Shown one piece after another: positions 5,820 through 47,979 of a stretch of 64,000 bases of DNA. Positions within the stretch are counted from its first letter, which is position 1, and the number at the start of each line of letters is the position of its first letter. Source of the DNA: Haladaptatus cibarius D43. GTDB lineage: Archaea; Halobacteriota; Halobacteria; Halobacteriales; Haladaptataceae. The stretch covers positions 620,001 through 684,000 of the forward strand of contig NZ_JDTH01000001.1 of the NCBI RefSeq assembly GCF_000710615.1, given 5' to 3'. Under the pieces are notes generated by a model. It was given only the letters and a program-made list of their open reading frames with translations, ran no database searches and was not told where the DNA came from. The translations under genes were made by a program, and so were the position numbers.

Positions 5820-6040
5820 CAGCGGTCGTTCGCGGGTGGCGGTGGCCCGATGCCGACAATTCGGATTTCCGGTTTACCGTTTCGGGTTCGACGGACGGCG
5901 TGCTCTGCTTTGAAACGCGTTCGGTAGTCGTGATGGCAAAGAAACACCAGTAGCACTGCTGAAATCACTGACCAAACGACCACTCGAATACTACGCATCG
6001 CTCCTTGTTGGCCGCTTCCTCAAACAAAAACTTCCGTCCC

Positions 6041-10630: not shown

Positions 10631-10631
10631 A

Positions 10632-11582: not shown

Positions 11583-11609
11583 AATTTCGTGTATGGAAAC
11601 GGTGGATTG

Positions 11610-13265
11610 TTAGTTGTCGAGCGAGACGTTCGACCACTTGTTACACAGCGGTTGCGCCGCGAACGCGGTCGGGTCGTAGCCGTTGACTTTCTTGCTCCAC
11701 GCGGTGGCGGACTGTTCCGAGTACACCGGAATGTGGGGATACTCCGACTGGAACGTCTCCGCGAGTTCGATGTACAGCTTTCTGCGCTCTTCTCGGGTCC
11801 CAAGCTTACGCGCTTCTCGAATCTTTTCGTCCGCTTTTTTCAACTTCTCGCTGTCGGGGTATGCCTCGTACAGCATTCCTCCGGCGGCGTTGCCGATGTA
11901 ATTATCTTCCACGCCACCGTCGTCATTACGCGGATTGCGGAACAGATAGTAGTAGAATCCATCGGGGTCTTGGCCGCCGGACCAGCCGTAGATAGTCACG
12001 TCGAACTCCCCCGTATCGAGTTGGTCGAGCCATCGACCGGTGTCCACTTCCTGCACCTCCGCATTGATACCGACTTGGTTCATCTCGTTCTGTAACTTGA
12101 TGACCATTTTCTTGAACTTTCCAGACGCGAGTGTGGACATCGTCACGTCGAACCCGTCACCGTATCCCGCCTCTTCGAGCAACTGCTTCGCCTTTTCGTG
12201 GTCTCTCGACGGGTAGTATTTTTGTTTCCACTCTTGCCATGGGAAATTCCACGCCTCGTTCACCTCTTTCGGCATGAACCCATAGCTTCGCTTTGCGAGT
12301 TCTCCCTTCGTCGCTTTCAGCATCTCGTCGTAATCAACGAGGTACTGCATCGCTTCCCGAACTTTCCGATTATCGAACGGCTCTCGTTTCGAGTTGAAAA
12401 CAAGTCCGTTGTAATCGAACTGCGAGATGCGCTTCATCTGGATGGAATCGACTTTTTTCGCTTCCCCTAGCAACGTTTCGGAGACGGACGCCTGATGCAC
12501 GCCACCGGTTTTGAGGTCAACGAATGCGGTCTGTGCCTGTGGAATAATGCGATACTTGATCTGTTTTAGATTGGCCTTCTCCAGGAAGTAATCGTCGTAC
12601 CGTTCGAGCGTGAGATGTGACCCGGACTGCCACTCCTTGAGTTTGAACGGGCCGCTTCCGACCGGTTTCTGCGCGAACTTCTTTTGCCCCTTGTCCTCGG
12701 CGACTTTCTTCGGAACGATGGCTGCGTTCATCCCCGCCAGTTCCAGTTCGAACAGCGCATACGCGTATCTGAGGTTAAACGTCACCTCGTAATCGCCAGT
12801 CTTCTCGACGCTTTTGATGAAGCCAAGATTCTCCCGATTCGTCGATTTGTTCTTCGGGTCGAGCACCCAGTTGAACGAGTACGCCACGTCCTCGGCAGTC
12901 ATCTCGCTTCCGTCGTGGAACATGACTCCCTGCTTGAGCGGAACGGTGTACGTCGTTTCGTCCTGCTTTTTCGGTCGTTCCTTTGCGAGATGAGGAACGA
13001 TGTCGCTTCCGTCGGGTTTGATGGTCACGAGCGTATCAAACAGGTAGTGCATCATCGAATTCGCCCACGCGAGTTCGTTCATACGTGGGTCGAGTGTCGT
13101 CGCGCTCTCTGGAGACGTGTTGATGAACGTTCCACCTTCCGACCCGTCGCTCGGTCCATCGTCCGTCGTCTGGCCGCCACACCCGGCGAGCATCGTGGCC
13201 CCGCCGAGTGCACTCATGGTCAAAAAGCGTCGTCGGTCGAGGGGGAGATTGTCTTTATCAGTCAT
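11610..13265 (-). CDS. dppA-like SBP: Peptide ABC transporter substrate-binding lipoprotein (SBP family 5)
   Basis: The extracytoplasmic receptor of the importer, about 551 residues. The N-terminus has a twin-arginine signal (LDRRRFLTMSALGG) followed by a lipobox (MLAGC), so it should be Tat-exported folded and lipid-anchored. The mature part follows the DppA/OppA pattern: LDPRMNELAW near the start, then YTVPLKQGVMFHDGSEMTAEDV and GSGPFKLKEW. The ATG at 13265 places the Arg pair normally; a start at 13286 would add seven residues. It is the first gene of the dppBCDF-S13 operon, downstream of a strong TATA box. Ligand choice cannot be read, but the operon suggests peptides with D-residues. Confidence 0.92.
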   Translation of the reverse strand: MTDKDNLPLDRRRFLTMSALGGATMLAGCGGQTTDDGPSDGSEGGTFINTSPESATTLDPRMNELAWANSMMHYLFDTLVTIKPDGSDIVPHLAKERPKKQDETTYTVPLKQGVMFHDGSEMTAEDVAYSFNWVLDPKNKSTNRENLGFIKSVEKTGDYEVTFNLRYAYALFELELAGMNAAIVPKKVAEDKGQKKFAQKPVGSGPFKLKEWQSGSHLTLERYDDYFLEKANLKQIKYRIIPQAQTAFVDLKTGGVHQASVSETLLGEAKKVDSIQMKRISQFDYNGLVFNSKREPFDNRKVREAMQYLVDYDEMLKATKGELAKRSYGFMPKEVNEAWNFPWQEWKQKYYPSRDHEKAKQLLEEAGYGDGFDVTMSTLASGKFKKMVIKLQNEMNQVGINAEVQEVDTGRWLDQLDTGEFDVTIYGWSGGQDPDGFYYYLFRNPRNDDGGVEDNYIGNAAGGMLYEAYPDSEKLKKADEKIREARKLGTREERRKLYIELAETFQSEYPHIPVYSEQSATAWSKKVNGYDPTAFAAQPLCNKWSNVSLDN

Positions 13266-13342
13266 GGTAGTCGGTAGTGCGGGCACGTTGCCCGGTTCGT
13301 GATACCTAATAGCAAAGATGGATATAGCAAATAAGACAGCCC

Positions 13343-13368
13343 TTTTATACTAGGGTTATCTGATCAGA
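13343..13368 (-). promoter_or_regulatory. Promoter of the peptide-transport operon
   Basis: On the minus strand a clear TATA box (GTATAAAAGG, about 13341-13350) lies about 80 bases before the start of the binding-protein gene, which implies a leader of about 50 bases. Just upstream of the TATA box sits the 10-bp palindrome TCTGATCAGA (13359-13368), a possible regulator or BRE-adjacent site. It overlaps the last codons of the neighbouring gene. Confidence 0.5.
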
Positions 13369-13838
13369 ACAGTAATCTGTACGCTGTCCTGTAAATTTGA
13401 TGTATTTTCACCGGTTGCAAGATACCCTGTCAAGGTGTGCGTTCCCGGTTCGGGTCGCCACTCGTCGCCGTCGATTCCGGAACGACGAATCTGCCCGTCC
13501 CACGTTCCCTCGAACTGACGGATACCCCGTCGCGGAAAGGCGACTCGCCGCGACTTTTCTGGCGGTTCGAAGCGTCGTTCGTCGGCGTCCGGAATGCCAT
13601 CAACGTCCCATCCCCAGAGCCGACTCGTCGGCAGGCGCACGCCGAGCGGAATCGGCGCACGATTTCGAATACGGAGGACGAACTTCGCAGACTCTCCGGC
13701 GACGATTTCCCGCGGCGCGCGCAGTTCGACCGAAAGGCACCGCAACGCAATCGGGTTCGGAACCAATCCGGCGACCCAACTGCCCCCGCTTTCGGTACCA
13801 CCCGCAGGGTCGGGCGACAACACGTCTGCCGGTTTCAT
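13356..13838 (-). CDS. Beta-sandwich protein, BsuPI-like (hypothetical)
   Basis: About 160 residues if started at the ATG at 13838 (MKPADVLSPD); a start at 13865 is possible. The central part (LRAPREIVAGESAKFVLRIRNRA) and the end (THTLTGYLAT) look like the all-beta domain of BsuPI, an intracellular proteinase inhibitor family, in which hydrophobic strands alternate with Asn/Gly turns. The resemblance is by pattern only. It sits between the lysA-like gene and the peptide-transport operon on the same strand, and its end overlaps the operon promoter. Confidence 0.6.
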   Translation of the reverse strand: MKPADVLSPDPAGGTESGGSWVAGLVPNPIALRCLSVELRAPREIVAGESAKFVLRIRNRAPIPLGVRLPTSRLWGWDVDGIPDADERRFEPPEKSRRVAFPRRGIRQFEGTWDGQIRRSGIDGDEWRPEPGTHTLTGYLATGENTSNLQDSVQITVLIR

Positions 13839-13917
13839 GGTCTGGTCACCGAACCGACAACCCAAATGTCTTTCTCACGATGGAATTCGATTTTGCAGTC
13901 CATTCGAAATTTATCGT

Positions 13918-15180
13918 TCACAGCCCATCCGGAATTCGGTCACGGCCGAGTACGTCTTCACACGTTTCGCGTTTTCGCAGGCAGTCGTGCGCCCCATCGC
14001 TTCGAACCAGCACGACCGGCGGTTTCGGTTCCGCGTTGGTATGACTCGCACTGCCGAGGGAGTACGCGCCGATTCTGTCCACCGCGACGAGGTCGCCGGG
14101 ACCGAGTTCGGGAAGCGCCACGTCCTCGCTTATCACGTCGCCAGTGTAGCAGAGCGGGCCAGCGACGTGATATTTTTGCGTCGGTTTGCGGTCTTTCAGG
14201 GCGTACACCGGGTACGGCCAGTAGGAGGAAACGGCGTTCGTCCCGCCGTCCAGCACCGCAAAATCGGCGTATGGCGTCTCCTTTACGACGCCGACCGTGG
14301 CGAGGTAGGTTCCGGCGTTGCCGACGAGTCTGCGCCCCGGTTCCACGAACAGCGTCGGTTCCCGAAGACCGAGGTCGGCGCAGGTCGTGCGAACCGTCTC
14401 AGCCATGTGCTCCACGATATCTTCGGTGGCCGGAACGTCCTCGTCGTATGGAACCGGAAAGCCGCCGCCAAGGTCGAGTACGTCGATTTCGACGCCCAAC
14501 TCGTCGCGGATTTGGCCTGCAAAGCCGAGCATTTCGCGGGCGGCGATCCCGTATGGTTCGACGCCGCGAATCTGACTGCCGACGTGTAACTGCACGCCAG
14601 CGAGGGAAACGGCATCGGATTCCACAGCCGTCTCCGCAACTGCCATCGCTCGCCCGCTTTCGATGTCCAGTCCGAACTTGCTCTCTCGGGTCGCCGTCGC
14701 CACCCCGGGATGCGTCGGCACCTCCATCGCGGGGTTGCCGCGAATCAGCACGTCGGGTTTCGTGTCGGTTGCATTCGCCGCCACGATGATTTTCTCCAAC
14801 TCCGCGGCGTTGTCCACGAGCAGGTGCGAGACACCCCACGAAAGCGCGCGTTCGATGTCCTCCGGCGCACGGTTCATTCCCGTGAGAAGCACGTCTTCGG
14901 CGTCGAATCCTGCCTGCTGAGTCGCCGTCAGTTCGCATCTCGCGTAGGCTTCCGCCTTACATCCGGCATCTCGAAGCACCGAGAGAATCCCGAGGTTGTA
15001 GTTGGCTTTCACCGCGAAGTGGACTTCCGAATCGGGGTAGTGGTCGTCCAGTGCTTTCCGGAGCGTTTCGTAGTTCGCTCGCAGGTCGTCCTCGAAAAAG
15101 GCGTACAGCGGCGACCCGAATTTTGAAACGAGGTCGTCGGCGTGTCTGCGCAGTCGCTCTCTTCGGGTGGCTACGTCCAT
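13918..15180 (-). CDS. lysA: Diaminopimelate decarboxylase-like PLP enzyme (fold III)
   Basis: About 420 residues, the normal LysA length. The PLP lysine lies in HFAVKANYN, the SKFGL motif and the glycine loop LGGGFPVPYDED follow, and the C-terminal barrel carries VEPGRRLVGNAG. LysA turns meso-DAP into L-lysine. The catalytic-Cys loop reads GPLCYTGD, whereas canonical LysA has CESGD there. The Glu that contacts substrate is replaced by Tyr, so DAP may not be the substrate. It is not beside other lysine-synthesis genes but next to an EamA permease gene, transcribed divergently, and upstream of the peptide-transport genes. The ATG at 15180 (MDVATRRERL) is preferred over 15216. Confidence 0.82.
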   Translation of the reverse strand: MDVATRRERLRRHADDLVSKFGSPLYAFFEDDLRANYETLRKALDDHYPDSEVHFAVKANYNLGILSVLRDAGCKAEAYARCELTATQQAGFDAEDVLLTGMNRAPEDIERALSWGVSHLLVDNAAELEKIIVAANATDTKPDVLIRGNPAMEVPTHPGVATATRESKFGLDIESGRAMAVAETAVESDAVSLAGVQLHVGSQIRGVEPYGIAAREMLGFAGQIRDELGVEIDVLDLGGGFPVPYDEDVPATEDIVEHMAETVRTTCADLGLREPTLFVEPGRRLVGNAGTYLATVGVVKETPYADFAVLDGGTNAVSSYWPYPVYALKDRKPTQKYHVAGPLCYTGDVISEDVALPELGPGDLVAVDRIGAYSLGSASHTNAEPKPPVVLVRSDGAHDCLRKRETCEDVLGRDRIPDGL

Positions 15181-15196
15181 GCCACGAAATTCCCCA

Positions 15197-15261
15197 GAGG
15201 GCGAATAACGATTCACCCTCCCATACTAGGGACAGAAATTTACCACGAGGGCGACACCCTC
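15197..15261. promoter_or_regulatory. Divergent lysA-like/eamA promoter region with paired GAGGG...CCCTC inverted repeats
   Basis: The 87-bp gap holds two inverted repeats with the same arms: GAGGG at 15197-15201 with CCCTC at 15216-15220, and GAGGG at 15247-15251 with CCCTC at 15257-15261. An AAATTTA stretch at 15236-15242 lies about 28 bases before the eamA start and fits its TATA box. The repeats flank it and could be an operator for both genes. Confidence 0.45.
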
Positions 15262-15267
15262 CGCATA

Positions 15268-16152
15268 ATGTCACGCGCCGGTGCGCTCGCGCCGCTCACC
15301 GCCGCCGCGCTGTGGGGCGGCATGTACGTCGTGAGCAAGTGGGGATTCGAGGTGATTCCGCCCGTGACGCTGGCGTTTCTGCGCGTCGCTCTCGGCGGCC
15401 TGACGCTTTTCGTGGTGGTTCGACTGACGATACCAACCCGAAAATTTTCGTGGGATGATTGGAAACGATTCGGAATTCTTGGCGGTTGGGTCGCGCTCAC
15501 CCTCGTGACCCAGTTCGTCGGCACTGACCTGACCACCGCGAGCCAAGGCTCACTGCTGACCGTTCTCACACCCGTTTTTACGGTTCTGCTCGGCGTCAGC
15601 GTTCTCGGCGAATCATTTTCCGCGCGAAAGGGCGCGGGAATGGTGTTGGCAGTCGTCGGAACCGTCGTCGTCCTCACTGGGCAGTACGACTTTTCGACAA
15701 TCGGTGATGGGAACCTCCTCGGCGTTCTCGCTCTGTTCGCCGCGAGTTTCGGGTGGGCGGGCTACACCGTGTGGGGGAAACCGCTCGTCAGAACCTATTC
15801 GGCCCTCGAAACCGCGACCTACTCCACGCTCGTATCGATTCCGCTGGTCGGCGTTCTCGTTCCACTCGAACTCGCAACTGCCTCTCCCTCCTTCGACGCG
15901 AGCCTAACCCTCCCAATCGTCGCGGCGGTGCTGTATCTCGGCGTGTTCAGCACCGCGGCGGCGTGGTTTCTCTGGTATCGCGGACTGGAAGAATTGGATG
16001 CGGGCGTCGTTGCTGTCTTCTTTTTCGCGCAACCAGTGGTGGGTGCGGTACTCAGCGCGCTCTTCCTCTCGGAGTCGCTCGCCCCGTCATTTCTCGCAGG
16101 TGGGGCGGTGATGGCGCTCGGCGTCTGGGTCGTGAGTACTGCGGGAGAGTAA
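15268..16152 (+). CDS. EamA/DMT-family drug/metabolite transporter
   Basis: A 294-residue membrane protein with ten predicted helices in two EamA repeats. Each repeat holds the family pattern of small residues and a final helix-ending Pro (for example PVFTVLLGVSVLGESF in the first and QPVVGAVLSALFLSESLAP in the second). EamA proteins usually export amino acids or metabolites. The divergent partner is the LysA-like decarboxylase, which suggests export of its product or a related amino acid (inference). The ATG at 15268 starts the first helix properly (MSRAGALAPLTAAALWGG); an upstream ATG at 15142 would overlap the lysA-like gene. Confidence 0.88.
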   Translation: MSRAGALAPLTAAALWGGMYVVSKWGFEVIPPVTLAFLRVALGGLTLFVVVRLTIPTRKFSWDDWKRFGILGGWVALTLVTQFVGTDLTTASQGSLLTVLTPVFTVLLGVSVLGESFSARKGAGMVLAVVGTVVVLTGQYDFSTIGDGNLLGVLALFAASFGWAGYTVWGKPLVRTYSALETATYSTLVSIPLVGVLVPLELATASPSFDASLTLPIVAAVLYLGVFSTAAAWFLWYRGLEELDAGVVAVFFFAQPVVGAVLSALFLSESLAPSFLAGGAVMALGVWVVSTAGE

Positions 16153-16179
16153 TCGAGAATCGAATCGCGTCGATTCGGG

Positions 16180-16662
16180 TCAGTCCGCCAGCGGGTCTTC
16201 GGTTCCGCGAACGCTGTCCACGATAACGTCTCCCTCCGGACGCTCGACCAACCAAAACAGTTTGTAGGCATCCACGTCTCGAACGAACTCGATGTTCGGC
16301 GTATCGTTGAGTGAGTAGCGCCGGAGCGTCCACTGGAGGACGGACTCCCGCGCTTTCGCCCGCGACTGTTCCGGGGAGAGTTCCGTCGGGAGCACCAGCA
16401 CGTCCTCGATTTCCATTTCTTCCGCGTCCGGCACGCCATCCGCGCGAACCACCAACCTGCGGGAACGGTCAACGCTGGCGACGAACCGGTCGGTTCGGGC
16501 GCTCATGAACGGGCGCTTGATGGTCACTTCGGCTTCGTATACTCGGTATGGGTACGCAACCGCACCGACCCGTCCGGTTCCGGCCTCTTCGCGCGAAACC
16601 GACGGCGGGATGACCGCGAGTTCCGCGCGTTCTCGCCGTTTTCCAACCAGTTTACTCGTCAT
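16180..16662 (-). CDS. Conserved haloarchaeal hypothetical protein
   Basis: A soluble protein of 160 residues. It has a basic N-terminus (SKLVGKRRERAEL) and then alternating strand-like segments such as YRVYEAEVTIKRPF and RRLVVRADGVPDAEEM. No membrane segment and no recognised catalytic motif. It starts 16 bases after the stop of the Na+/solute symporter gene on the same strand and is probably on the same transcript. No function is proposed. Confidence 0.75.
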   Translation of the reverse strand: MTSKLVGKRRERAELAVIPPSVSREEAGTGRVGAVAYPYRVYEAEVTIKRPFMSARTDRFVASVDRSRRLVVRADGVPDAEEMEIEDVLVLPTELSPEQSRAKARESVLQWTLRRYSLNDTPNIEFVRDVDAYKLFWLVERPEGDVIVDSVRGTEDPLAD

Positions 16663-16678
16663 TGCTCACAATTTCCAG

Positions 16679-18400
16679 TCATTTCTCATTATTCCAATAG
16701 CCGGATTCCCCGACGTGGGCGCGGATGTTGTCCGCTTCGGTGATTGCTTTCGGCGACACGTCTCGCCCACCGTCAGTCACGTAACTCGGTGTCCCACTTC
16801 CAGGTTCGCTCGTCACCGCGGACAGCGGCTTGTCGAATATGTCGAAGTGGTCTTCGACACCGGACGGCGGTTTCGTCACAAGAGAGACGGAAATCAGCGT
16901 AATCACCGAGAGGATGAACGCTGGGAATAGGCCGTAGACACCGACAAGACTGTAGAGGAACGGCGAGGATTCCGTCGGCATCAGCGTGAGATTGTTAACG
17001 AACGGTAGCAATCCGAGAATGTCGGCAATGATTGGAAGAATGACGCTGAGTTGCGTCCAGATGACCATCGTCGTTGCACCGACAATCATACTCGCCACTG
17101 AACCCTTCGCTGTGACGCGCTTCCACCACAACGCCGCGATGAGTGTCGGCCCGATTGCCGCGCCTAAACCACCCCACGCATAATCGAGGACGAGGGTGTA
17201 AATCGGCGTGTCCTTGGCGAGGTACGCGAAGGCGATGCTTGCGGCACCGAGTCCGAGCGTGACGTAGCGCGAGTAGCGAACGAGTTGTTGTTCGGTCGCC
17301 TGCTTGTTCAGGAAGCCGTGGTACACGTCCTCCACGACGGCGCTCGTGGCGACGAGCAGTTGCGAGTCGGCGCTGGACATCATCGCCGCCAGTGCCGCCG
17401 CGAGGACGATTCCGGCAATGGCTCCGGGCAGGAGGTTGAGCGTCAATCGCGGCATGGCGTTGTCGGCGTTTGCGAGGTCACCCTGTCCGAAGATGACGAT
17501 GGCGTACAGTCCAACGAGGGCCGCGCCGATGTACGCGACGAACATGAACAGTTGGGCGACCATCGCCGCGAGACGGACGTTTTTCACTCGGTCGATGCCC
17601 ATGAACCGCACCATGATGTGCGGGTTGCCGGGAACACCCAGACCGATTGCGGCGTAGCTGATGATGCCGAAAATCGCCGCCCAGCCGGTTGCGCCAGCGG
17701 TGATGCTGGTCAGCGACGCCCCGCCATCGACGTTTGCGAGGTCACCGAACGGCAGTCCGTAGGTCGTGAACGCGATGACGGGGAGGATGATGAACGCGGC
17801 GAGGATAATTGCTCCTTGGAAGTAGTCCGACCATGCGACGGCGAAGTAGCCGCCGAGCATAGTGTAGCCGACGACGATGACGCCACCGACGACGATGCCG
17901 ACCCACGGTTCGACGCCAGTGAGAACCTGCAACAGCGTTCCGGCGGCGACGATTTGGGCACCGACGTAGCCTCCTTCGAACAGCATCAACACGATTGCCG
18001 AGACGCCTTTTACCATGCCCGACGTGTCACCCAAGCGAGTGGCGAAGAAGGTCGGGAGCGTCACCGATTTCACGATTTCCGTGTATTTCCGGAGTCGTTT
18101 TGCCAGTCCTGCCCACGCGAGCAAATCCGCCGGAATCATTCCGAGTCCGTTCAAAAACGCCATGATTCCCGTGTTGAAGGCGTCCGCGGGAACACCGAGC
18201 GTGAGCCAACCGCTCATTTCGGACGCTCGTTCGGAGAACCCGGTGACGACCGGGCCGATTTGACGCCCGCCGATGACGTAATCGCCGACGGAATCCATCA
18301 TTGTCGACGCCCACAGCCCGATTCCGATGAGGACGAGCAGATACGCGCCGAAGGTTCCGAGCACCCAGATGCCTGCCTGTCCTGCGATTCCGTCAGGCAT
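16679..18400 (-). CDS. Sodium/solute symporter (SSS/PutP family)
   Basis: A 573-residue transporter with about 13 helices. The N-terminal part has the SSS signature (DYVIGGRQIGPVVTGFSERASEMSGW, residues about 37-62), very close to Na+/proline symporter PutP, including the SERASxMSGW motif involved in Na+ and proline binding. It should take up a small amino acid or similar organic solute with Na+. The ATG at 18400 (MPDGIAGQAG) overlaps the end of a small membrane-protein gene by eight bases. A start at 18424 would add only a basic octapeptide. Confidence 0.9.
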   Translation of the reverse strand: MPDGIAGQAGIWVLGTFGAYLLVLIGIGLWASTMMDSVGDYVIGGRQIGPVVTGFSERASEMSGWLTLGVPADAFNTGIMAFLNGLGMIPADLLAWAGLAKRLRKYTEIVKSVTLPTFFATRLGDTSGMVKGVSAIVLMLFEGGYVGAQIVAAGTLLQVLTGVEPWVGIVVGGVIVVGYTMLGGYFAVAWSDYFQGAIILAAFIILPVIAFTTYGLPFGDLANVDGGASLTSITAGATGWAAIFGIISYAAIGLGVPGNPHIMVRFMGIDRVKNVRLAAMVAQLFMFVAYIGAALVGLYAIVIFGQGDLANADNAMPRLTLNLLPGAIAGIVLAAALAAMMSSADSQLLVATSAVVEDVYHGFLNKQATEQQLVRYSRYVTLGLGAASIAFAYLAKDTPIYTLVLDYAWGGLGAAIGPTLIAALWWKRVTAKGSVASMIVGATTMVIWTQLSVILPIIADILGLLPFVNNLTLMPTESSPFLYSLVGVYGLFPAFILSVITLISVSLVTKPPSGVEDHFDIFDKPLSAVTSEPGSGTPSYVTDGGRDVSPKAITEADNIRAHVGESGYWNNEK

Positions 18401-18527
18401 GAGTGTCCTCCTCGTACTCCTCACGCAGGCGCTTTTCGCGCCTGCCTTCGAGGACGTAGTACGCGATTAGCATCACGAAAAAAACTACGTATGGTACGAC
18501 CAATCCCACCCAGTCGAGTGTGCTCAT
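18393..18527 (-). CDS. Small single-helix membrane protein preceding the symporter
   Basis: About 44 residues from the ATG at 18527 (MSTLDWVGLVVPYVV). One hydrophobic helix is followed by a charged tail (LEGRREKRLREEYEEDTHA). Starts at 18536 or 18596 are possible. SSS transporters are often preceded by such a short membrane partner, and the gene overlaps the symporter start by eight bases, so it is probably an accessory subunit (inference). Confidence 0.7.
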   Translation of the reverse strand: MSTLDWVGLVVPYVVFFVMLIAYYVLEGRREKRLREEYEEDTHA

Positions 18528-18660
18528 CCCTGCCATACCGGTACAGACTAACAAACGAAAAATAAGCGTTTTGGCATTCACGACCGACCGTAACAAAACT
18601 ATTTGTAGGAAGACCGGACAAAACTGCCGATATGCAGACGACAGTAGGGTGTCGGTGACG

Positions 18661-19515
18661 ATGCGCCCGACGACACCGACACTCGAATCCCGCGACGAAC
18701 TGGGGAAGTACGTCGAGTGCTACGCCGACCGAATCGACGGCGAACTCGGTGTCTTCCTCGGGTTTCCCTACGGCCCAGACGAGTTCGACACTGTCTACAC
18801 CCGAAACGCCCGCCGGGCGTTTCGGAGCGCGAGCGTGGTGAAAATTCTCATCTTATACGCGCTGTACGAACGATACGACGGCCGACTCGACTCTCTCGCG
18901 GAATCGTGCCCACTCGCCCCGGAAAACAGGGTCGGCGGAAGCGGTATCTTGCATCTTCTCGACGCCACGCCGACAATCGAGGAGTTAGCTCGCGCGATGA
19001 TTGCCACCAGCGACAACGCCGCGACGAACCAACTCATCGACCACCTCTCCATGACGACGATCAACGATTCTGCGGCGAAACTCGGCATGAAGCACACGCG
19101 ACTGGCCCGGAAGATGATGACGACACTGGAAGCGACCGATTTCGAGGAGTCGGAAATCCACGTCCCGGAGGACGAACCCGCCAACGTCACGTCTCCCGTC
19201 GATTGCGCCCGGTTTTTCGCCGACATCGGATGCGAGGCGACTCTTTCCGCGAACGCCTACGAACGACTGTGCGTTCCACTTTCTGCCCAGAAAGACACCT
19301 CGATGGTTCCGCGGTATCTCCCCTACGAAACCGAAATCATGCACAAAACCGGGTGGCTCCCAACCGCCGCGCTCGACGCCGGTTTGTTGTCGGTTCCGGA
19401 CGAAGGAACCCCGCCGCTCGTCTTCTCCGTCTTCGTTGATTCCGTTTCACACGGTGCCGACGCCGCGGACGCAATCGCGGAAATCGGCGACGCAGTGTTT
19501 TCGTGGCTCAGATGA
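18661..19515 (+). CDS. Class A beta-lactamase-fold serine hydrolase
   Basis: About 284 residues with the three penicillin-recognising motifs: SxxK as S58-V-V-K61 in FRSASVVKILIL, SDN in MIATSDNAATNQ and KTG in IMHKTGWLPTAA. The fold and order are those of class A beta-lactamases. The omega-loop Glu of true beta-lactamases (ExxLN) is not clearly present: the region reads PEDEPANVTSP. No signal peptide is visible, so it should be cytoplasmic and may be a D-amino-acid peptidase or esterase rather than an antibiotic-resistance enzyme. The ATG at 18661 is chosen because upstream codons lie in the promoter region shared with the symporter genes. The last eight bases overlap the end of the convergent NlpC/P60 gene. 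Confidence 0.82.
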   Translation: MRPTTPTLESRDELGKYVECYADRIDGELGVFLGFPYGPDEFDTVYTRNARRAFRSASVVKILILYALYERYDGRLDSLAESCPLAPENRVGGSGILHLLDATPTIEELARAMIATSDNAATNQLIDHLSMTTINDSAAKLGMKHTRLARKMMTTLEATDFEESEIHVPEDEPANVTSPVDCARFFADIGCEATLSANAYERLCVPLSAQKDTSMVPRYLPYETEIMHKTGWLPTAALDAGLLSVPDEGTPPLVFSVFVDSVSHGADAADAIAEIGDAVFSWLR

Positions 19516-20488
19516 GCCGTCGCGCGAGTTCGAACTTTTCGTCCAAATCCGCGAGATAGTCGTCGTGGTCACTGTCGAAACTGTTGATGACCACCGCGTC
19601 GTCGCCGCCATAGGCGTGGATGTACTCGTCGCCGCCGAGACTGATGGCGACGTGGCCGGGGAAAAACAGCAGGTCACCCGGCAGGAGTTCGCCGCGAGAA
19701 ACCGTCTCCCCCATGGCCCGCTGTTGGTCGGCATCACGGGGAAGGGAGATTCCGTTAACTTGGTACGAAATCCACGCCAATCCCGAGCAGTCGATTCCGT
19801 CCGTCGTCATCCCGCCCCAGTCGTACTCCGTGCCGAAGAACTGCCGTGCGATTTCGACGACTGCCTCGCCGGTCGGATTTTTGGGCGAGTGGCGAACCGC
19901 CCGGTCGGGTTCCAACTCGGATTTGGATTCGAAATCGGAGCGCGCGATGGTCGAACCCGTTCGAAAAACGATTTCTTCTCCGTCGATTCGACACTCCGTT
20001 CCGGCGTATATCGGGTGTGCTAGTTCATCGGGGCAGATTTCGTGGGCCAGAGTCGCGTCCGTAGTGTCTGCCTGCGGCGAGGTGAGAACCCCTGCTTCGA
20101 CCCATCCGAGATAGTCGTCCGGCGTTCGAATCCGAATCCAATCGCCGTCGCGGTCGAACGCGGCCACCGATGCTCCGTAGAGCACCTGCGTGACCTGTTC
20201 TACCTCGGCGTCCGAATCACTGCGGACGGGCGCGACCGCAACCTGGATTGTTTGCTCCGCTCGCTCGTCAGCGAGAACCGATAGCTCGCTCGTTACCGGC
20301 CTGCCGGTTGCCTGTTCGACTGCCAATTTCGCGTGCGTTTCGAGTTCGTGCGTCGAGACGGTTCCTCGCAGCAGGAGTTCGCCGTCTTCGGATTCGACTG
20401 CCGCGTCGAACACGGCGACTCGCGAATCGGGAGCGTGTCTCGTCCGACAGCGTTGCAGTGCCAGTCGAGCGCGCTGGTAATCGTCCAT
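19508..20488 (-). CDS. SH3-NlpC/P60 cysteine endopeptidase (YkfC-like)
   Basis: About 326 residues. An SH3-like region in the middle (VLYGASVAAFDRDGDWIRIR, then DDYLGWVEAGVL) precedes a C-terminal NlpC/P60 domain. Catalytic residues: Cys234 in GIDCSGLAW and His in FPGHVAISLG, with a second His in YIHAYGG. The architecture and length match YkfC of Bacillus, the gamma-D-glutamyl-L-diamino-acid endopeptidase that cuts murein tripeptides in the cytoplasm. No signal peptide. The ATG at 20488 follows the JAMM gene by 38 bases on the same strand. The frame is open upstream to 20938, but that part is low-complexity Arg/Gly shadow of the JAMM gene. Confidence 0.88.
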   Translation of the reverse strand: MDDYQRARLALQRCRTRHAPDSRVAVFDAAVESEDGELLLRGTVSTHELETHAKLAVEQATGRPVTSELSVLADERAEQTIQVAVAPVRSDSDAEVEQVTQVLYGASVAAFDRDGDWIRIRTPDDYLGWVEAGVLTSPQADTTDATLAHEICPDELAHPIYAGTECRIDGEEIVFRTGSTIARSDFESKSELEPDRAVRHSPKNPTGEAVVEIARQFFGTEYDWGGMTTDGIDCSGLAWISYQVNGISLPRDADQQRAMGETVSRGELLPGDLLFFPGHVAISLGGDEYIHAYGGDDAVVINSFDSDHDDYLADLDEKFELARRLI

Positions 20489-20526
20489 GCGCTTTCCTCC
20501 TCGGAGAGCGGTGAAAATCCTATCGC

Positions 20527-20961
20527 CTATTCGAGGTGGACGATTTCGGGGTCGAACGCCTCCCCCCTCCAGCGCCACGACCCGACGAAGGGGTACGCCC
20601 CGTTCAGAGAGACGATGACGTAGGCGTAGCCGTCCCACGTCGCGTCCGCGGCATCGGTTTCGCTCGGATGGTCTGGCCCTTCCGGATGGGAGTGGTAAAA
20701 TCCGACGACGTCCTGCCCGCGGTCTTCTATCTTTTCCATTATCTCCAGTTGTTCTTCCGGATGAATTTCGTAGTTCGTCTCCGGCGTCTCCGCGACGTTT
20801 TCGGCCTGAAACGTGTCTTCGACTGTGGTCGGACTGCCCTGCGTTCCGGCGAGAATACCGCAAATTTCGGCAGGACGACCCCGGCGTGCGCGACTCACGA
20901 GCGTGTCGTACACTTCGCGCGAGAGGACGAGCATGCACCGTGGTTCATCTTCAGAGTGCAT
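20527..20961 (-). CDS. JAMM/MPN+ metalloprotease (Mov34/PAD-1 family)
   Basis: A 144-residue zinc peptidase with the complete JAMM signature: Glu in EICGILAG and HxHx10D in HSHPEGPDHPSETD. Haloarchaeal proteins of this size include the desampylase that removes SAMP modifiers, and bacterial relatives accompany NlpC/P60 enzymes. This gene lies 38 bases upstream of an NlpC/P60 gene in one transcript, so a role in peptide or isopeptide cleavage alongside it is plausible. A desampylase function cannot be excluded. Starts at 20961 or 20934 (MLVLSREVY) are both possible. Confidence 0.88.
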   Translation of the reverse strand: MHSEDEPRCMLVLSREVYDTLVSRARRGRPAEICGILAGTQGSPTTVEDTFQAENVAETPETNYEIHPEEQLEIMEKIEDRGQDVVGFYHSHPEGPDHPSETDAADATWDGYAYVIVSLNGAYPFVGSWRWRGEAFDPEIVHLE

Positions 20962-41236: not shown

Positions 41237-43159
41237 TCAGTCGAGGAAGTTGATTTCCGTCCGCTTTTCCTCACGCTCCGCTTCCAGATGCTCGCGGAAC
41301 GATTCCAACGACACGTCCTTCTCTTCGCGCTCTTTGCGGTCACGAACCGAAATCGTGCCTGCCTCTTCCTCGTCACCACCGACTACAATCATGTACGGCA
41401 CGCGGTCGTCGTGGGCCTGCTGAATCTTGCGTCCGACCGTCCACGAGCGGTCTTCGACTTCGACGCGGAAGTCGCCGAGTTCGTTTTTGATGCGGTGGGC
41501 GTAACCGAGGTTGTCGTCGCTGACGGGGAGGATGCGAACCTGTTCGGGCGAGAGCCAGAGCGGGAACTTCCCGTTGAAGTGCTCGATGAGCACCATGAAG
41601 AAGCGCTCGTAGCTTCCGTACAGGGCGCGGTGAATCATCACCGGGCGCTCGCGCTCGTTGTCCTCGGTGACGTACTCCAAGTCGAATCGCTCGGGCATGT
41701 TGAAGTCGAGTTGCACCGTCGGGCCGTCCCAGACGCGCCCAAGGGCGTCCTCGAAGCCGAAGTCGATTTTCGGGCCGTAGAACGCGCCGTCGCCGGGTTC
41801 GATGTCGTAGTCCATCGAGGAGGATTCGAGGACGGATTCGAGTTGTTCCTCCGCGTGCTCCCAGAGTTCGTCGCTTCCGACCGATTTTTCCGGGCGGGTC
41901 GCCAGCGCGACTTCCACGTCCAAATCGAACGTCTCGATGACCTCGAAGATGAGGTCCATGACCTGTCGAATCTCGCGCTCGATTTGGTCGGGGCGAACGA
42001 ACAGGTGGCCGTCGTCGATGGTGAACGACCAGACGCGCGAGAGGCCGGAAAGCTCCCCGCGCTGTTCTTTGCGGTAGACTTTCCCGTTCTCGAAGTACCG
42101 AACCGGCAGGTCGCGGTAACTCCACGTATCTTGGTCGAAGATGGTCGCGTGGCCGGGGCAGTTCATCGGTTTGAGGCCGTACTCCTCATCGTTCACGTCG
42201 AGGAGGAACATGTCGTCAACGTAGTTGTCGTAGTGGCCCGATTTCTTCCACAGTTCGGTGCGGAACAGATGGGGCGTTTCGACTTCGTCGTAGCCTGCCT
42301 CACGGTTCAGTTCGCCCGCGAAGTCGGAGAGTTCCCGCAGAATCGTCTTTCCGCTCGGGTGGTACAGTGGCAGACCCGGCCCAGTCGTCTCGTCAATCGA
42401 GAACAAGTCCATCTCGCGTCCGAGTTTGCGGTGGTCGCGCTCTTCTGCTTCCTCCATGCGCTCCAGATAGTCATGAAGGTCGCCCTCGCTGGCGAACGCG
42501 GTGCCGTACACGCGAGTCAGCGTGTCGTTTTCCTCGTCGCCGCGCCAGTAGGCCGCCGAGGTTTCGAGAATCGTGAAGCCGCCGATTTCGCCCGTCGATT
42601 CGACGTGCGGGCCTTTACAGAGGTCTACGAACTCGCCCTGCTCGTAGAACGAAAGCGGGTCTTCGTCCGCCGCTTCGGTGTCCAAAACGTCCTGTTTGTA
42701 CTCGTTGTCCTCGTACAGGTCGAACGCTTCTTCGCGGGATTTTTCGACGCGCTCGATGTCTAAGTCTTCCTCGATGATGTCGTGTGCCTCGTCTTCGATT
42801 TCCGCGAGGTCGTCGCTGTCGAGTTCGACGCCGGAGATGTCGTAGTAGAATCCCTCGTCCGTCCACGGGCCGATTGCGAGTTTCGCTTCGGGGTGGAGTC
42901 GCTGGAGGGCTTGTGCGAAGACGTGGGACGCGGAGTGACGGAGCACATCAACGTACTCGTCGCTCTGGTCGGTGACGATGACGAGTCGGCAGTCCTCGGA
43001 AAGGGGCGTTGCCTTGTCAACGAGTTCTCCGTCAACGACACCTGCGACCGCGTCCTTGCCGAGTCCGGGGCCGATTTCGTAGGCCACGTCTTCTACGGTT
43101 GACCCGTCCTCCATCTGGAGTTCGGAGCCATCCGGAAGCGTGACGACGATTTCGCTCAT
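41237..43159 (-). CDS. thrS: Threonyl-tRNA synthetase (bacterial type)
   Basis: A 640-residue enzyme with the bacterial order: TGS domain ([21 protein letters not shown]), editing domain with [12 protein letters not shown] (HxxxH) and [10 protein letters not shown], class II catalytic core ([14 protein letters not shown] with zinc-binding Cys, [12 protein letters not shown]) and anticodon-binding end. Haloarchaea commonly have this bacterial type in place of the archaeal one. The start ATG at 43159 ([11 protein letters not shown]) is standard. The upstream 624-bp gap is filled with dispersed repeats. Confidence 0.95.
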
Positions 43160-43783: not shown

Positions 43784-44044
43784 ATGCGACGACTGCCAGC
43801 AAAAGAAGACGAAAGCAAACCGGTGTTCAACGTGGACGACGAAAAGGTCGGTATCGTCACGGAGATCAAAGACGGCACCGCCTACGTTGACCCGCATCCG
43901 AGCCTCCTGACCGAATACAAGATGCTTCTCGGGTGGAAAGACGACTCGAAGGAAATCTACCCGCTTCCGAAAGAGGCAATCGCGGAAATAACGGACAAGG
44001 AGGTTCGTCTGCAAACCCGCGATTCGGAACACGAAGACGACTGA
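43784..44044 (+). CDS. Small PRC-barrel-like protein
   Basis: An 86-residue acidic protein whose middle (DDEKVGIVTEIKDGTAYVDP, then KEIYPLPKEAIAEITDKEV) has the strand pattern of a PRC-barrel domain, a small fold found in RNA-processing and adaptor proteins. The assignment is by pattern. It lies 61 bases before the aspartoacylase-family gene on the same strand. Confidence 0.7.
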   Translation: MRRLPAKEDESKPVFNVDDEKVGIVTEIKDGTAYVDPHPSLLTEYKMLLGWKDDSKEIYPLPKEAIAEITDKEVRLQTRDSEHEDD

Positions 44045-44105: not shown

Positions 44106-44870
44106 ATGCACGTCGAAACCGTCGGCGACGGGACGCCGGAACTCGCCGTGGTCGCGTGCCTCCACGGAAATGAACTGTGTGGAAAAACGGCAATCGAGCG
44201 CGTGCTGGCCGAAAACCACGATTTTCGAAGACCGGTTCGGTTCGTCGTGGCCAACGAGGCGGCAATCGAGAAAAACGTCCGCAGCATCGACGAAGACCTG
44301 AATCGTGCCTTTCCGGGCGACTCTGGTGGAAAACCCCACGAATCCAGACTCGCAGCGGAACTCCTTCCGCAAGTCCGCGATTGTTCCGTTCTCGACCTCC
44401 ATTCGACGCGCTCGCATCCCGACCCCTTCGCGTTGGTCGCGCAGGTGAACGAGCGAACGACCAGACTCGCTCGTGCAACAGGTACGCCCCGCGTGGTCGA
44501 TGTCAGCTACATCGCTGGCGGTCTCATCGACTACGTTGATGGAGTGGCAGTCGAATGCGGACTACGGGGAAGCGAGCGAGCAGACCGAAACGCAGAGCGC
44601 GTCCTCCGCAATTTTCTGGGAGAGATGGGCGCAGTCGATACGCTGTCGGACGCGGGCGACCCCGAACTGTATCGGATTTTCGACGTCGTCGAAGGCGGCG
44701 ACTACGAGTTCGTCGGGGAGAACTTCGTCCGCGTGGAAGTGGGCGAGACGTTCGCCAGAAAGAACGGCGAGGAACGCCGCGCAGAACGGGCGTTTTATCC
44801 GGTGTTGATGTCCACGGACGGGTATGAGAATATTCTCGGGTTTCAGGCCGAACGGGTCGGCAAACTCTGA
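44106..44870 (+). CDS. AstE/AspA-family amidohydrolase (succinylglutamate desuccinylase/aspartoacylase)
   Basis: A 254-residue zinc hydrolase of the M14-like deacylase family. HGNE in VVACLHGNELCGKTA supplies the first metal ligands and the LDLHSTRSHP segment the second His; RSIDEDLNRAFPG is another hallmark. The family removes acyl groups from N-acyl amino acids. It converges on dgcA with only 11 bases between. The dgcN-dgcA route yields N-acetyl-L-glutamate, so this enzyme is a good candidate for the final deacetylation (inference). The real substrate may differ. Confidence 0.85.
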   Translation: MHVETVGDGTPELAVVACLHGNELCGKTAIERVLAENHDFRRPVRFVVANEAAIEKNVRSIDEDLNRAFPGDSGGKPHESRLAAELLPQVRDCSVLDLHSTRSHPDPFALVAQVNERTTRLARATGTPRVVDVSYIAGGLIDYVDGVAVECGLRGSERADRNAERVLRNFLGEMGAVDTLSDAGDPELYRIFDVVEGGDYEFVGENFVRVEVGETFARKNGEERRAERAFYPVLMSTDGYENILGFQAERVGKL

Positions 44871-44881
44871 GGGAGAGCTGA

Positions 44882-45919
44882 TTACTGTTTTTGCACGCCG
44901 GTTCCGGGTTGCCCGGTTTCGAGAGAGATGCGGCCATCAGGCATCGGAACGCCCTCGTACTCGTCCTCGGCGAGCAGAAGCGAGCCATCCAAATCCGCGT
45001 AGTCGAGCAGCGGTGCGAGGTGGCACGCCGCCGCAATGCTCGCGTTGCTCTCTATCATACAGCCGAGCATGACTTCCATCCCGTGCGCTTTCGCGGTGTG
45101 AATCATCCGCATTGCCTCCCGAAGCCCACCGCATTTCATTAGTTTCAGATTGGCGATGTCCGCTTGTCCGGCGATTCGCGGAATATCTTCCAGTGTGATA
45201 CAGGATTCGTCCGCCGCAATCGGTAGGGCGGAGCGTTCGCGGACGAATCGCATCCCGTCGGGATTTTCGGCTGGAATCGGTTGTTCGACGAACTCCACGT
45301 CGTACTCCGCGAGTACCTCGATTTTGCGTACTGCTTCTCGGGGACTCCACGCCTGATTCGCATCGACGCGAATCGTCGCGTTGGGAGCCTCGTCTCGAAT
45401 CGCCCCGACGATTTCCCCGTCGCGGTCGGTGCCGACTTTCACTTTCAGCGTGTTGTATCCGGCTTCGACCGCTTCCGCCGTTTTCTCGCGCATGACTTCG
45501 GTCGTGTCGATGCCGATGGTGAACGAGGTTTCGAGCGTGTTCTCCGGGTCGAGTCCCCAGTAGCGATACAGCGGCAGGTCGCCCCGCTTCGCCACGAGGT
45601 CGTGGAGCGCGATGCTCACCGCACAGCGAGCGGCGGGATTTCGATTTACCACTTCCTTCATCTCCCGTTCGATTTGGGCGAGCGCGTGGGGGTCGTCCAC
45701 CGATTCCACGACGTTTAGGAGGTCGGGCATGACGGTCTCCACGGTGTCCGCCGTCTCGCCGTAATGCTTGGAGGGTGCGGCCCCGCCGACGCCGACATTC
45801 CCCTCGTCGTCCTCGATTCGGACGACGACGTTGTCGGCAGTCGTCTGGGTACTCCGGGAAATCGTGAAGGCGTGTTCGAGCGGAAGCGAGAGCCGTTCGT
45901 ATTCGGTCGAGAGGCTCAT
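44882..45919 (-). CDS. dgcA: N-acetyl-D-glutamate racemase / dipeptide-epimerase-family enzyme
   Basis: A 345-residue member of the enolase superfamily, muconate-lactonizing/dipeptide epimerase group. Catalytic lysines lie in LKVKVGTDRDG and in KLMKCGG, metal ligands in RVDANQAW, VEQPIPAEN and ADESC. The pair with the DUF1611 gene defines the DgcN-DgcA route known from marine Proteobacteria and haloarchaea, in which DgcA racemises N-acetyl-D-glutamate. Older annotation would call it L-Ala-D/L-Glu epimerase (YkfB-like), and that activity cannot be excluded. Its start overlaps the dgcN stop by four bases. Confidence 0.88.
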   Translation of the reverse strand: MSLSTEYERLSLPLEHAFTISRSTQTTADNVVVRIEDDEGNVGVGGAAPSKHYGETADTVETVMPDLLNVVESVDDPHALAQIEREMKEVVNRNPAARCAVSIALHDLVAKRGDLPLYRYWGLDPENTLETSFTIGIDTTEVMREKTAEAVEAGYNTLKVKVGTDRDGEIVGAIRDEAPNATIRVDANQAWSPREAVRKIEVLAEYDVEFVEQPIPAENPDGMRFVRERSALPIAADESCITLEDIPRIAGQADIANLKLMKCGGLREAMRMIHTAKAHGMEVMLGCMIESNASIAAACHLAPLLDYADLDGSLLLAEDEYEGVPMPDGRISLETGQPGTGVQKQ

Positions 45920-46929
45920 AGAATCGCCTCCAGCACGTCGTCGGCGTCGAAGCGAACGAGGTCTGTCGCGGGTCTGCCGAGTTCGGATTCGTAGGATTCG
46001 ACCGCATCCCGGGCAGATTCATCTCCCTCGATTCCGGAGGTGTTGAGCGCGCCCGCGACGATTTCGGCCTCTTGAACTGGTCTGGCGAGATTCTCGTACA
46101 GCGAGACGTACTCCTCGATGGACGGGAGCGAGAACGATTCGTAGCTGTGGATGACTTCTTTTCCTGCTTCGTGACAAAGCACGAGTTTGTTGGCCATCGA
46201 CCCGTGGAGAATGCCGCAGGTTACGGCGGAGTAGGCGGGATGGACGATGCTTCCCTGTCCTTCCACGAACAGGTAGTCGTAGTCGTTGCCGCGCTCCAGA
46301 ATCATCTCCTCGACCGCCCCGGCGGTGAAGTCGCTGACCACGCGGTCGATCGGGTTGCCCCAGCCGTCAATCATGATTCCGGTCTGTCCGGTCGGGATGA
46401 ATTCGGCGTTGATTCCGCGCTCTTCCGCCGCTTCGAGCAGTTCGAGCGTCACGGTCATCTTCCCAACCGAGCAGTCGGTGCCGACCGTCAGCACGATTTC
46501 CGCGTCCACTTCGTTCGCAATCCCTTGGCCGACCGTCAGGTCGTCGTGCGGTTTGCGTACGTCCCAAATCTCACAATCGTTCTCTTCCGCAAGTCGGGCG
46601 AACTCCTCGTCGTTTTCGAGGAAGTAGTGGAGTCCGGAAATCACGTCACACCCGCGAGAGAGCGCAGTTCGAATGTCATCGCGCCACGAGTCGTCGAATC
46701 CGCCGCCGATGGGTGCGATGCCGATAATCAGCGCGTCCACGTCGCCAACGTCGTCCATTCCGGCGACGATGGGGGCGTCCTGTACGTCCGGTAAATGGTC
46801 GCTCACGCGCTCGCCGGGTCGGTCGTGGTCGAGAATCGCCTCGACTTCGTAGTCGGCGTAGCGAAGGATTCCGACCGCGGTTTTCGCACGCCCGGGGAAC
46901 TTCTCGTGAGCGAGTATGGCCACCTGCAT
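45916..46929 (-). CDS. dgcN: D-glutamate N-acetyltransferase (DUF1611 family)
   Basis: A 337-residue DUF1611 protein. The Rossmann-like N-terminus starts MQVAILAHEKFPGRAKTAV, the P-loop-like VGTDCSVGKMT lies near residue 150, and FVEGQGSIVHPAYS follows. DgcN acetylates D-glutamate as the first step of its catabolism. The ATG at 46929 is chosen because the frame beyond it is low-complexity and overlaps the thrB gene. The gene is upstream of dgcA in the same transcript. Confidence 0.88.
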   Translation of the reverse strand: MQVAILAHEKFPGRAKTAVGILRYADYEVEAILDHDRPGERVSDHLPDVQDAPIVAGMDDVGDVDALIIGIAPIGGGFDDSWRDDIRTALSRGCDVISGLHYFLENDEEFARLAEENDCEIWDVRKPHDDLTVGQGIANEVDAEIVLTVGTDCSVGKMTVTLELLEAAEERGINAEFIPTGQTGIMIDGWGNPIDRVVSDFTAGAVEEMILERGNDYDYLFVEGQGSIVHPAYSAVTCGILHGSMANKLVLCHEAGKEVIHSYESFSLPSIEEYVSLYENLARPVQEAEIVAGALNTSGIEGDESARDAVESYESELGRPATDLVRFDADDVLEAIL

Positions 46930-47103: not shown

Positions 47104-47979
47104 ATGGTCACTGTGCGGGCACCCGCGACAAGCGCCAACCTCGGAAGCGGCTTCGACGTGTTCGGACTGGCGCTGGAGCGACCCGCAGACGTCGTCCGGG
47201 TCGAGCGCGCCGAGGAGACGACGATTGAAGTAACAGGCGTTGGACAGCAGTACATTCCGGAGAATCCGGCGAAAAATACCGCGGGCGTCGTCGCCGAGGA
47301 ACTTGACGCACCCGCGCACATCGAAATAGACAAAGGGGTTCGTCCATCGTCCGGACTGGGTTCGTCCGCCGCGAGCGCCGCCGCCGCCGCAGTCGCGCTG
47401 AACGAACTCTACGACTGCGGATGCACGCCCACTGAATTGGTTCGCGTTGCCGCGGAGGGCGAGGCCGCCGTTTCCGGCGAAGCCCACGCGGACAACGTCG
47501 CACCCGCAATTCTCGGCGGGTTTACCATCGTTACCGACGAGGACGTGACGCAGGTCGATGCGTCGATTCCAGTCGTCGCCTGTCTCCCAGAAATCGTCGT
47601 TTCGACGCGAGATGCTCGGCAGGTCGTCCCCCAATCCGTCGAAATCGACGAACTCGTGGGAACCGTGGGCGACGCCGCGACGCTCACCGCGGGGATGTTT
47701 CGCGACGACCCCGAACTCGTCGGGAAGGGTCTGCGCAACAACTCCCTCACGGGGGCACGCGAATCGCTCATCAAGGGATTCGACGCGGTGCGGGAGTCCG
47801 CACTTTCCGCGGGTGCGACCGGCGTCGCGGTCAGTGGTGCAGGTCCGAGCGTCCTCGCCGTCTGCCGCGAGGGGGGACAGAGTTCGGTCGCAAGTGCAAT
47901 GCTTGATGCCTTTTTAGACGCGGACGTCGAAGCGCGGGCCTACCCAACGTCGGTCGGCAGCGGTGCGACGATTTTGTGA
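47104..47979 (+). CDS. thrB: Homoserine kinase
   Basis: A 291-residue GHMP kinase that phosphorylates homoserine for threonine synthesis. It starts VTVRAPATSANLGSGFDVFG, the ThrB signature. The ATP loop is GVRPSSGLGSSAASAAAAA, and the C-terminal AVSGAGPSVLAV is GHMP motif 3. The ATG at 47104 is preceded by TTTTAAAC about 12 bases upstream, a possible TATA-like element. Divergent from dgcN. Confidence 0.95.
   Translation: MVTVRAPATSANLGSGFDVFGLALERPADVVRVERAEETTIEVTGVGQQYIPENPAKNTAGVVAEELDAPAHIEIDKGVRPSSGLGSSAASAAAAAVALNELYDCGCTPTELVRVAAEGEAAVSGEAHADNVAPAILGGFTIVTDEDVTQVDASIPVVACLPEIVVSTRDARQVVPQSVEIDELVGTVGDAATLTAGMFRDDPELVGKGLRNNSLTGARESLIKGFDAVRESALSAGATGVAVSGAGPSVLAVCREGGQSSVASAMLDAFLDADVEARAYPTSVGSGATIL

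Follow-up and report, generated by a model that had tools for sequence, protein, structure and literature searches.

A stretch of 64,000 nucleotides from Haladaptatus cibarius D43 (G000:C1:620001-684000; hereafter the window, from whose start coordinates are counted; G, C and L numbers are our labels for genomes, contigs and loci) carries the dgcN-dgcA gene pair, which is near-universal core equipment of the Halobacteria, and beside it a zinc deacylase of an accessory lineage. We put forward, with a probability of roughly 0.42, that this locus consists of the haloarchaeal core pair and an accessory deacylase added in this genus and its sister genus, and that the three gene products together would provide a route from D-glutamate to L-glutamate. 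In this route DgcN would acetylate D-glutamate and DgcA would racemise the resulting N-acetyl-D-glutamate, giving its L form. From the product of DgcA the deacylase would then free L-glutamate or else the corresponding acidic amino acid. Such a pathway pays off only when the N-acetyl-L-glutamate made by DgcA is deacylated, and a concrete candidate for this step is present in the genus. All three open reading frames (ORFs) are intact in the window and are arranged as follows:

44106..44870, plus strand: accessory AstE/AspA-type zinc deacylase (P0001), 254 amino acids; PF24827 at 57.5 bits (cut-off 25)
44871..44881, no strand: intergenic gap of 11 base pairs (bp), with the deacylase and dgcA tail to tail; from sequence
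44882..45919, minus strand: dgcA-like gene (P0002) for an enolase-superfamily racemase/epimerase, 345 amino acids; MR_MLE_C at 155.7 bits, MR_MLE_N at 44.6
45916..45919, minus strand: ATGA, the 4-bp overlap of the dgcN stop and the dgcA start; from sequence
45916..46929, minus strand: dgcN-like gene (P0003) for a two-domain DUF1611 protein, 337 amino acids; DUF1611 at 248 bits, DUF1611_N at 101

A first-pass annotation of the window had described the four-base overlap of dgcN and dgcA and the 11-base gap to a deacylase on the opposite strand, and both were confirmed, the former by its ATGA junction and the latter by the sequence from stop to stop.

The DgcN- and DgcA-like proteins

P0003 possesses the N- and C-terminal domains of DUF1611 together with a conserved P-loop (motif GTDCSVGKMT), and its solved relatives are 2obn, 2g0t and 7xrj. 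Its best NCBIfam family is DgcN (NF041892) at 248.1 bits, with the equivalog cut-off of 480 missed, and that of P0002 is racemase_DgcA (NF042940) at 257.4 bits, with the cut-off of 400 missed. The models themselves work, since one DgcN and one DgcA of Rhodobacterales, from loci found with a piece of 7xrj, exceeded the cut-offs with 522 and 513 bits, respectively. The names DgcN and DgcA given in the first-pass annotation thus agree with the best family of each protein, but at 248/480 and 257/400 bits they fit more loosely than was claimed. An alignment of 70 haloarchaeal core DgcN with 80 bacterial DgcN-type proteins, the latter from Rhodobacterales-type loci, contained 60 columns with an identical residue conserved at ≥95%, the P-loop included. 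By homology, P0003 is likely the proposed D-glutamate N-acetyltransferase, and P0002 likely the proposed N-acetyl-D-glutamate racemase.

The KxK, D-E-D, K and DxD residues of DgcA and its 20s-loop Arg were present in all 66 haloarchaeal core dgcA loci. This Arg is also found in 78/78 bacterial DgcA and is replaced by Leu in the second-copy haloarchaeal epimerases (10/10). The Glu of a GCMxES motif occurs in 64/66 haloarchaeal core DgcA, and bacterial DgcA has Gly there (77/78, with one gap). The DxD motif was considered as a means of telling an N-acetylglutamate racemase from a dipeptide epimerase and was found to be useless, being present in all groups. In a tree built on subsets of 66 and 78 rows, bacterial DgcA and E. 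coli YcjG group together (support 100/100), the haloarchaeal core DgcA form a clade of their own and the second haloarchaeal copies group with dipeptide epimerases of Bacillus and Enterococcus, with long branches. The solved structures matching P0002 are headed by 3iji, titled muconate cycloisomerase, which we take to be a Bacteroides dipeptide-epimerase relative, and the next four are titled dipeptide or L-Ala-D/L-Glu epimerases. Given the missed cut-offs and the tree placement, N-acetylation and racemisation of D-glutamate are likely and remain the likeliest reading of the pair, short of a settled one.

Matches to DUF1611 (E ≤ 1e-10) were identified in 293 of 322 genomes of the Halobacteria, a sample which held no second member of the window's genus. 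Seventy dgcN loci were inspected over about 6 kilobases (kb) on each side, and dgcA lies directly behind dgcN in 66 of them; the core dgcN of L112, L131, L135 and L136 had no dgcA match within ~6 kb. Genes in the loci were called by a composition-based caller which sometimes chose an antisense frame, a fault shared by the homology-based calling used earlier.

The accessory deacylase and its linkage to dgcNA

The AlphaFold model of P0001 has a predicted local distance difference test (pLDDT) score of 94.7. Over its full length it matched 3cdx (Z 23.5, root-mean-square deviation (rmsd) 2.8, 247 residues aligned), DoeB 6twm (Z 23.0, rmsd 2.6, 246 aligned), the aspartoacylase 4mri (Z 21.9, rmsd 2.7, 238 aligned) and CphZ (Z 19.2, rmsd 3.3, 247 aligned), and likewise AstE. 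The zinc set H20, E23 and H99 and the general base E150, with roles assigned by alignment to aspartoacylase (ASPA), are invariant in 19/19 members of the accessory clade described below. The label of AstE/AspA zinc hydrolase is therefore upheld by PF24827, by the zinc and base residues and by the fold, but P0001 reaches neither of the curated NCBIfam models for aspartoacylase (46.9 bits, cut-off 180) and succinylglutamate desuccinylase (29.5 bits, cut-off 170). The accessible part of PMC10998430 lists the residues of ASPA; among them is R168, which makes the side-chain contact to the substrate and lies ten residues before the base E178. By that list, the Arg and Asn residues which bind substrate in ASPA are kept in the deacylase with the exception of R168; as none of the sequence alignments listed for PDB entries covered the R168 region, the remark on this residue is one that we infer.

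The wider deacylase family is present in 76/78 representative genomes and falls into two lineages. In a tree of 54 deacylases, an accessory clade of 19 (support 100/98) includes the window gene, and the second deacylase of the window genome (G000:C2:91618) falls outside it, in the separate core lineage. L051 (G161) switched root side between two trees and was excluded from the 19. The class-wide search was conducted at E ≤ 1e-65 and counts of accessory copies are accordingly lower bounds. Core deacylases have R or K139, E148 and Q154 (34/34), and accessory ones G139, A148 and R or K154 (18/19 each). This charge swap leads one to expect a substrate differing from that of the core copy and makes for a clean comparison between the two. 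The column-139 Arg of core copies, which lies near the position of ASPA R168, may possibly be its counterpart, and in the accessory deacylase its place may be taken by the basic residue at 154.

Around the three genes the window holds:

43784..44044, plus strand: small ORF (P0005), 86 amino acids, in the orientation of the deacylase and 61 bp upstream of it
41237..43159, minus strand: flanking threonyl-tRNA synthetase (label by reading; context, not pathway)
47104..47979, plus strand: homoserine kinase (context); NCBIfam homoserine kinase at 347 bits, cut-off 194

The block of P0005, deacylase, dgcA and dgcN is kept in 9/9 genomes of the genus, with the deacylase and dgcA 4-21 bp apart, and with dgcN and dgcA overlapping by 4 bp in the eight genomes measured, the window included. 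Median ratios of non-synonymous to synonymous substitution (dN/dS) for the three genes were 0.17, 0.14 and 0.135 over 36 genus pairs. A three-gene block with gaps this short in all nine genomes is more than chance would give, and the idea that the linkage is unique to the window genome was discarded on the same count. The threonyl-tRNA synthetase adjoins the block in 7/9 genomes and the homoserine kinase in 6/9; the block is intact in G323 and G327, where neither flanks it, and in G322, where the synthetase alone does. It has thus outlasted its flanks, and as G323 and G327 are sister rows in the tree, relocation of a 3-kb segment in one event would account for both. P0005, for which no Pfam match above cut-off and no confident family was found, lies upstream of the deacylase in 9/9 genus genomes and had no match in the 70 other dgcN loci. 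One of the genomes (G328) has a dgcA (L290:2781-3818) which is frameshifted in its first half and in frame from about residue 153, representing an assembly error or decay. The gene at the position of the synthetase near dgcA in L161, L166, L167 and L328 matches that of the window at only ~30%, and a different type of synthetase may occupy this position.

A search of 28 genomes of the family detected the accessory deacylase in the nine genus genomes and in G330 of the sister genus, where it lies 0.9 kb from dgcA with one called gene of 261 amino acids between; three further matches were core-type by tree. Elsewhere the distance between dgcN and the deacylase is 7.7 kb (G238), 6.6 kb (G265) and 11.7 kb (G233), in the same orientation, and 118 and 121 kb (G213 and G214), about 550 kb (G070 and G124) or 908 kb (G134), and in G203 the two are on different contigs. 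The deacylase is thereby within 12 kb of dgcN in 13 of 19 holders of the accessory clade, holders of one genus being non-independent. Within the 70 other dgcN loci there was one strong deacylase match, of the core type with UPF0179-like and DUF309-like neighbours, and three weak ones (E 1e-4 to 1e-6), and within 80 Rhodobacterales-type dgcN loci one weak match to the deacylase family. G288 has a core deacylase close to dgcA, the two being separated by a UPF0179-like gene.

The first-pass annotation had asked for a check on whether the three genes stay together in other haloarchaea. They do in 9/9 genomes of the genus and, with the deacylase nearby, in G330, but adjacency does not extend beyond the family. 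The core deacylase, moreover, is kept in 18/20 genomes without dgcN (20 of the 29 dgcN-lacking genomes of the class being covered). The deacylase as a general third enzyme of haloarchaeal dgcNA was rejected on these two grounds, and since dgcN is present in 293/322 genomes and the accessory clade in few, the accessory deacylase cannot be a general third step. A complete route is plausible for the window's genus only.

In the f4/f8 half of the accessory clade (families f4 and f8; G070, G124, G238, G265, G233, G203, G213 and G214), the deacylase is divergent from, and adjoins, a five-gene peptide ATP-binding cassette (ABC) transporter operon in 8/8 holders. The operon was named by similarity to the one inside the window, which has ATPase, permease and binding-protein Pfam domains. 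An orthologous operon, the nearest of this type in the window genome (L275; 69% permease identity), is 237 kb away with no deacylase beside it. The permease (E ≤ 1e-110) was present in 16/28 genomes tested and also occurs without the accessory deacylase; in G273, G171, G129 and G047, which have it, the deacylase is core-type in the tree.

Weighing the explanations

Linkage of the deacylase to dgcNA in the genus and G330 is firmer than plain chance, and it is this linkage which suggests that the enzyme would act on the product of DgcA; the reactions of DgcN and DgcA would be those of their distant homologues. Several observations weigh against a D-glutamate route made of all three. Both equivalog cut-offs are missed widely, with about half of the bits asked, and the haloarchaeal DgcA does not group with bacterial DgcA in the long-branched tree. 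Being convergent, the deacylase gene and dgcNA do not form a single operon; the deacylase relatives in eight genomes lie next to a peptide transporter and not next to dgcNA; and the accessory clade is without the column-139 Arg of the core copies. The last three bear on a quite conceivable alternative, namely that the deacylase has a separate role as an N-acyl-amino-acid or dipeptide hydrolase for compounds imported by the peptide ABC transporter, its adjacency to dgcA being inherited gene order. The convergent orientation keeps such a role almost as likely, and it is also favoured by the transporter association in 8/8 f4/f8 members, by the orthologous operon in the window genome itself, by a fold group which includes DoeB and the cyanophycin dipeptide hydrolase CphZ, and by the charge swap that sets the pocket of the deacylase apart from that of the core copy. 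Set against this, the deacylase stays with dgcNA in every genome of the genus, two of them without the usual flanks, and transporter orthologues are present also in genomes which lack it.

It would be less expected, and we consider it improbable, that the core pair works on another acyl- or peptidyl-amino acid, such as a dipeptide of the L-Ala-D/L-Glu type, and that the DgcN/DgcA name has been over-transferred. The missed cut-offs, the position of the core epimerase outside the clade of bacterial DgcA and E. coli YcjG, the solved matches led by 3iji and by dipeptide and L-Ala-D/L-Glu epimerases, the Glu of GCMxES in place of the bacterial Gly, and the presence of the pair as a core feature across the class would all agree with this. 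However, like its counterpart in the characterised pathway, the epimerase is strictly paired with a DUF1611 protein, the DxD motif is common to bacterial DgcA too and does not discriminate, and the tree has long branches. Yu et al., 2023 (ISME J; cited in PMC12363236) place the pathway itself, by their title, in marine Proteobacteria and halophilic archaea, and the DgcN-DgcA route or its enzymes are described in the accessible parts of PMC10845958 and PMC11747546. Within the accessible parts of these two and of PMC12363236, no enzyme is named as deacylating N-acetyl-L-glutamate after DgcA.

A second DUF1611 gene occurs in the window genome (G000:C2:1824618-1825097, within L147) with its own epimerase of another lineage, which has Leu instead of the 20s-loop Arg. 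Such second pairs are scattered among other haloarchaea and several are plasmid-borne; peptide-transporter genes lie close to them in several genomes, and an NlpC/P60 enzyme in one. A second pair in G273 adjoins an NlpC/P60 protein that carries SH3 domains (L138:5866-6888), and a peptide-transporter ATPase is nearby, so that the neighbourhood has the look of a haloarchaeal cluster for the salvage of murein peptides. One could view a DUF1611 protein with an enolase-superfamily epimerase as a general module for D-amino acids which acylates and then epimerises, with at least three epimerase lineages (bacterial YcjG-like, haloarchaeal core, and the haloarchaeal second copy akin to Bacillus/Enterococcus dipeptide epimerases), each for one side chain, and with lineage-specific deacylases added as a third enzyme by haloarchaea. 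The second haloarchaeal pair, without the 20s-loop Arg, would then serve another residue. We regard this generalisation as rather doubtful.

The first-pass annotation had also tied the locus to a putative murein-degrading island at 3-21 kb of the window. This region (2998-20961) encodes an S9 peptidase, an M55 D-aminopeptidase, an S13 D-Ala-D-Ala carboxypeptidase-type protein, an oligopeptide ABC transporter, a pyridoxal-phosphate (PLP) decarboxylase of the Orn/DAP/Arg family, a sodium:solute symporter and a JAB protein. Use of peptides and D-amino acids by the island is credible because of its predicted peptidases, transporter and decarboxylase. To our knowledge, however, the Halobacteria are a class without peptidoglycan, and that dgcNA is core to such a class argues against tying the pair to one island of the window genome; no tie was found and the proposed connection was not borne out. 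Why a D-glutamate-type pair is retained in nine of ten genomes of archaea that have no peptidoglycan is a question which the candidate route would open to testing.

Comparison with known systems

The locus resembles the DgcN-DgcA pathway in having a DUF1611 protein and an enolase-superfamily racemase adjacent and in the same order, with P-loop and catalytic residues conserved. It differs in that the haloarchaeal proteins are ~36% identical to the bacterial ones and miss both equivalog cut-offs, and in that the window pair adjoins a deacylase, whereas in Rhodobacterales-type loci dgcA is followed by a D-amino-acid transaminase. This transaminase recurs among the 12 such loci (from L172-L251) checked for neighbours, and in 7/12 a gene of the N-formylglutamate amidohydrolase family lies ~3-4 kb downstream and may encode the deacylase of the bacterial pathway. 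With the L-Ala-D/L-Glu epimerases of the YcjG and YkfB type, haloarchaeal DgcA shares the superfamily, the catalytic lysines and the DxD motif, but it is paired with DUF1611 and forms its own clade in the long-branched tree.

The deacylase shares with the AstE/AspA family (aspartoacylase, succinylglutamate desuccinylase, DoeB and CphZ) the Pfam catalytic domain, the zinc ligands, the base and the fold (Z 19-23.5), but is shorter at 254 amino acids, has 13-22% identity to solved members and has no apparent counterpart of ASPA R168. Its relationship to the core haloarchaeal AstE/AspA protein (G000:C2:91618) is closer, with 44-47% identity and the same catalytic residues; the two differ in belonging to separate, well-supported clades, in the DUF309-like and UPF0179-like neighbours of the core gene (labels by reading) and in a pocket of R139/E148/Q154 in the core protein against G/A/[KR] in the accessory one.

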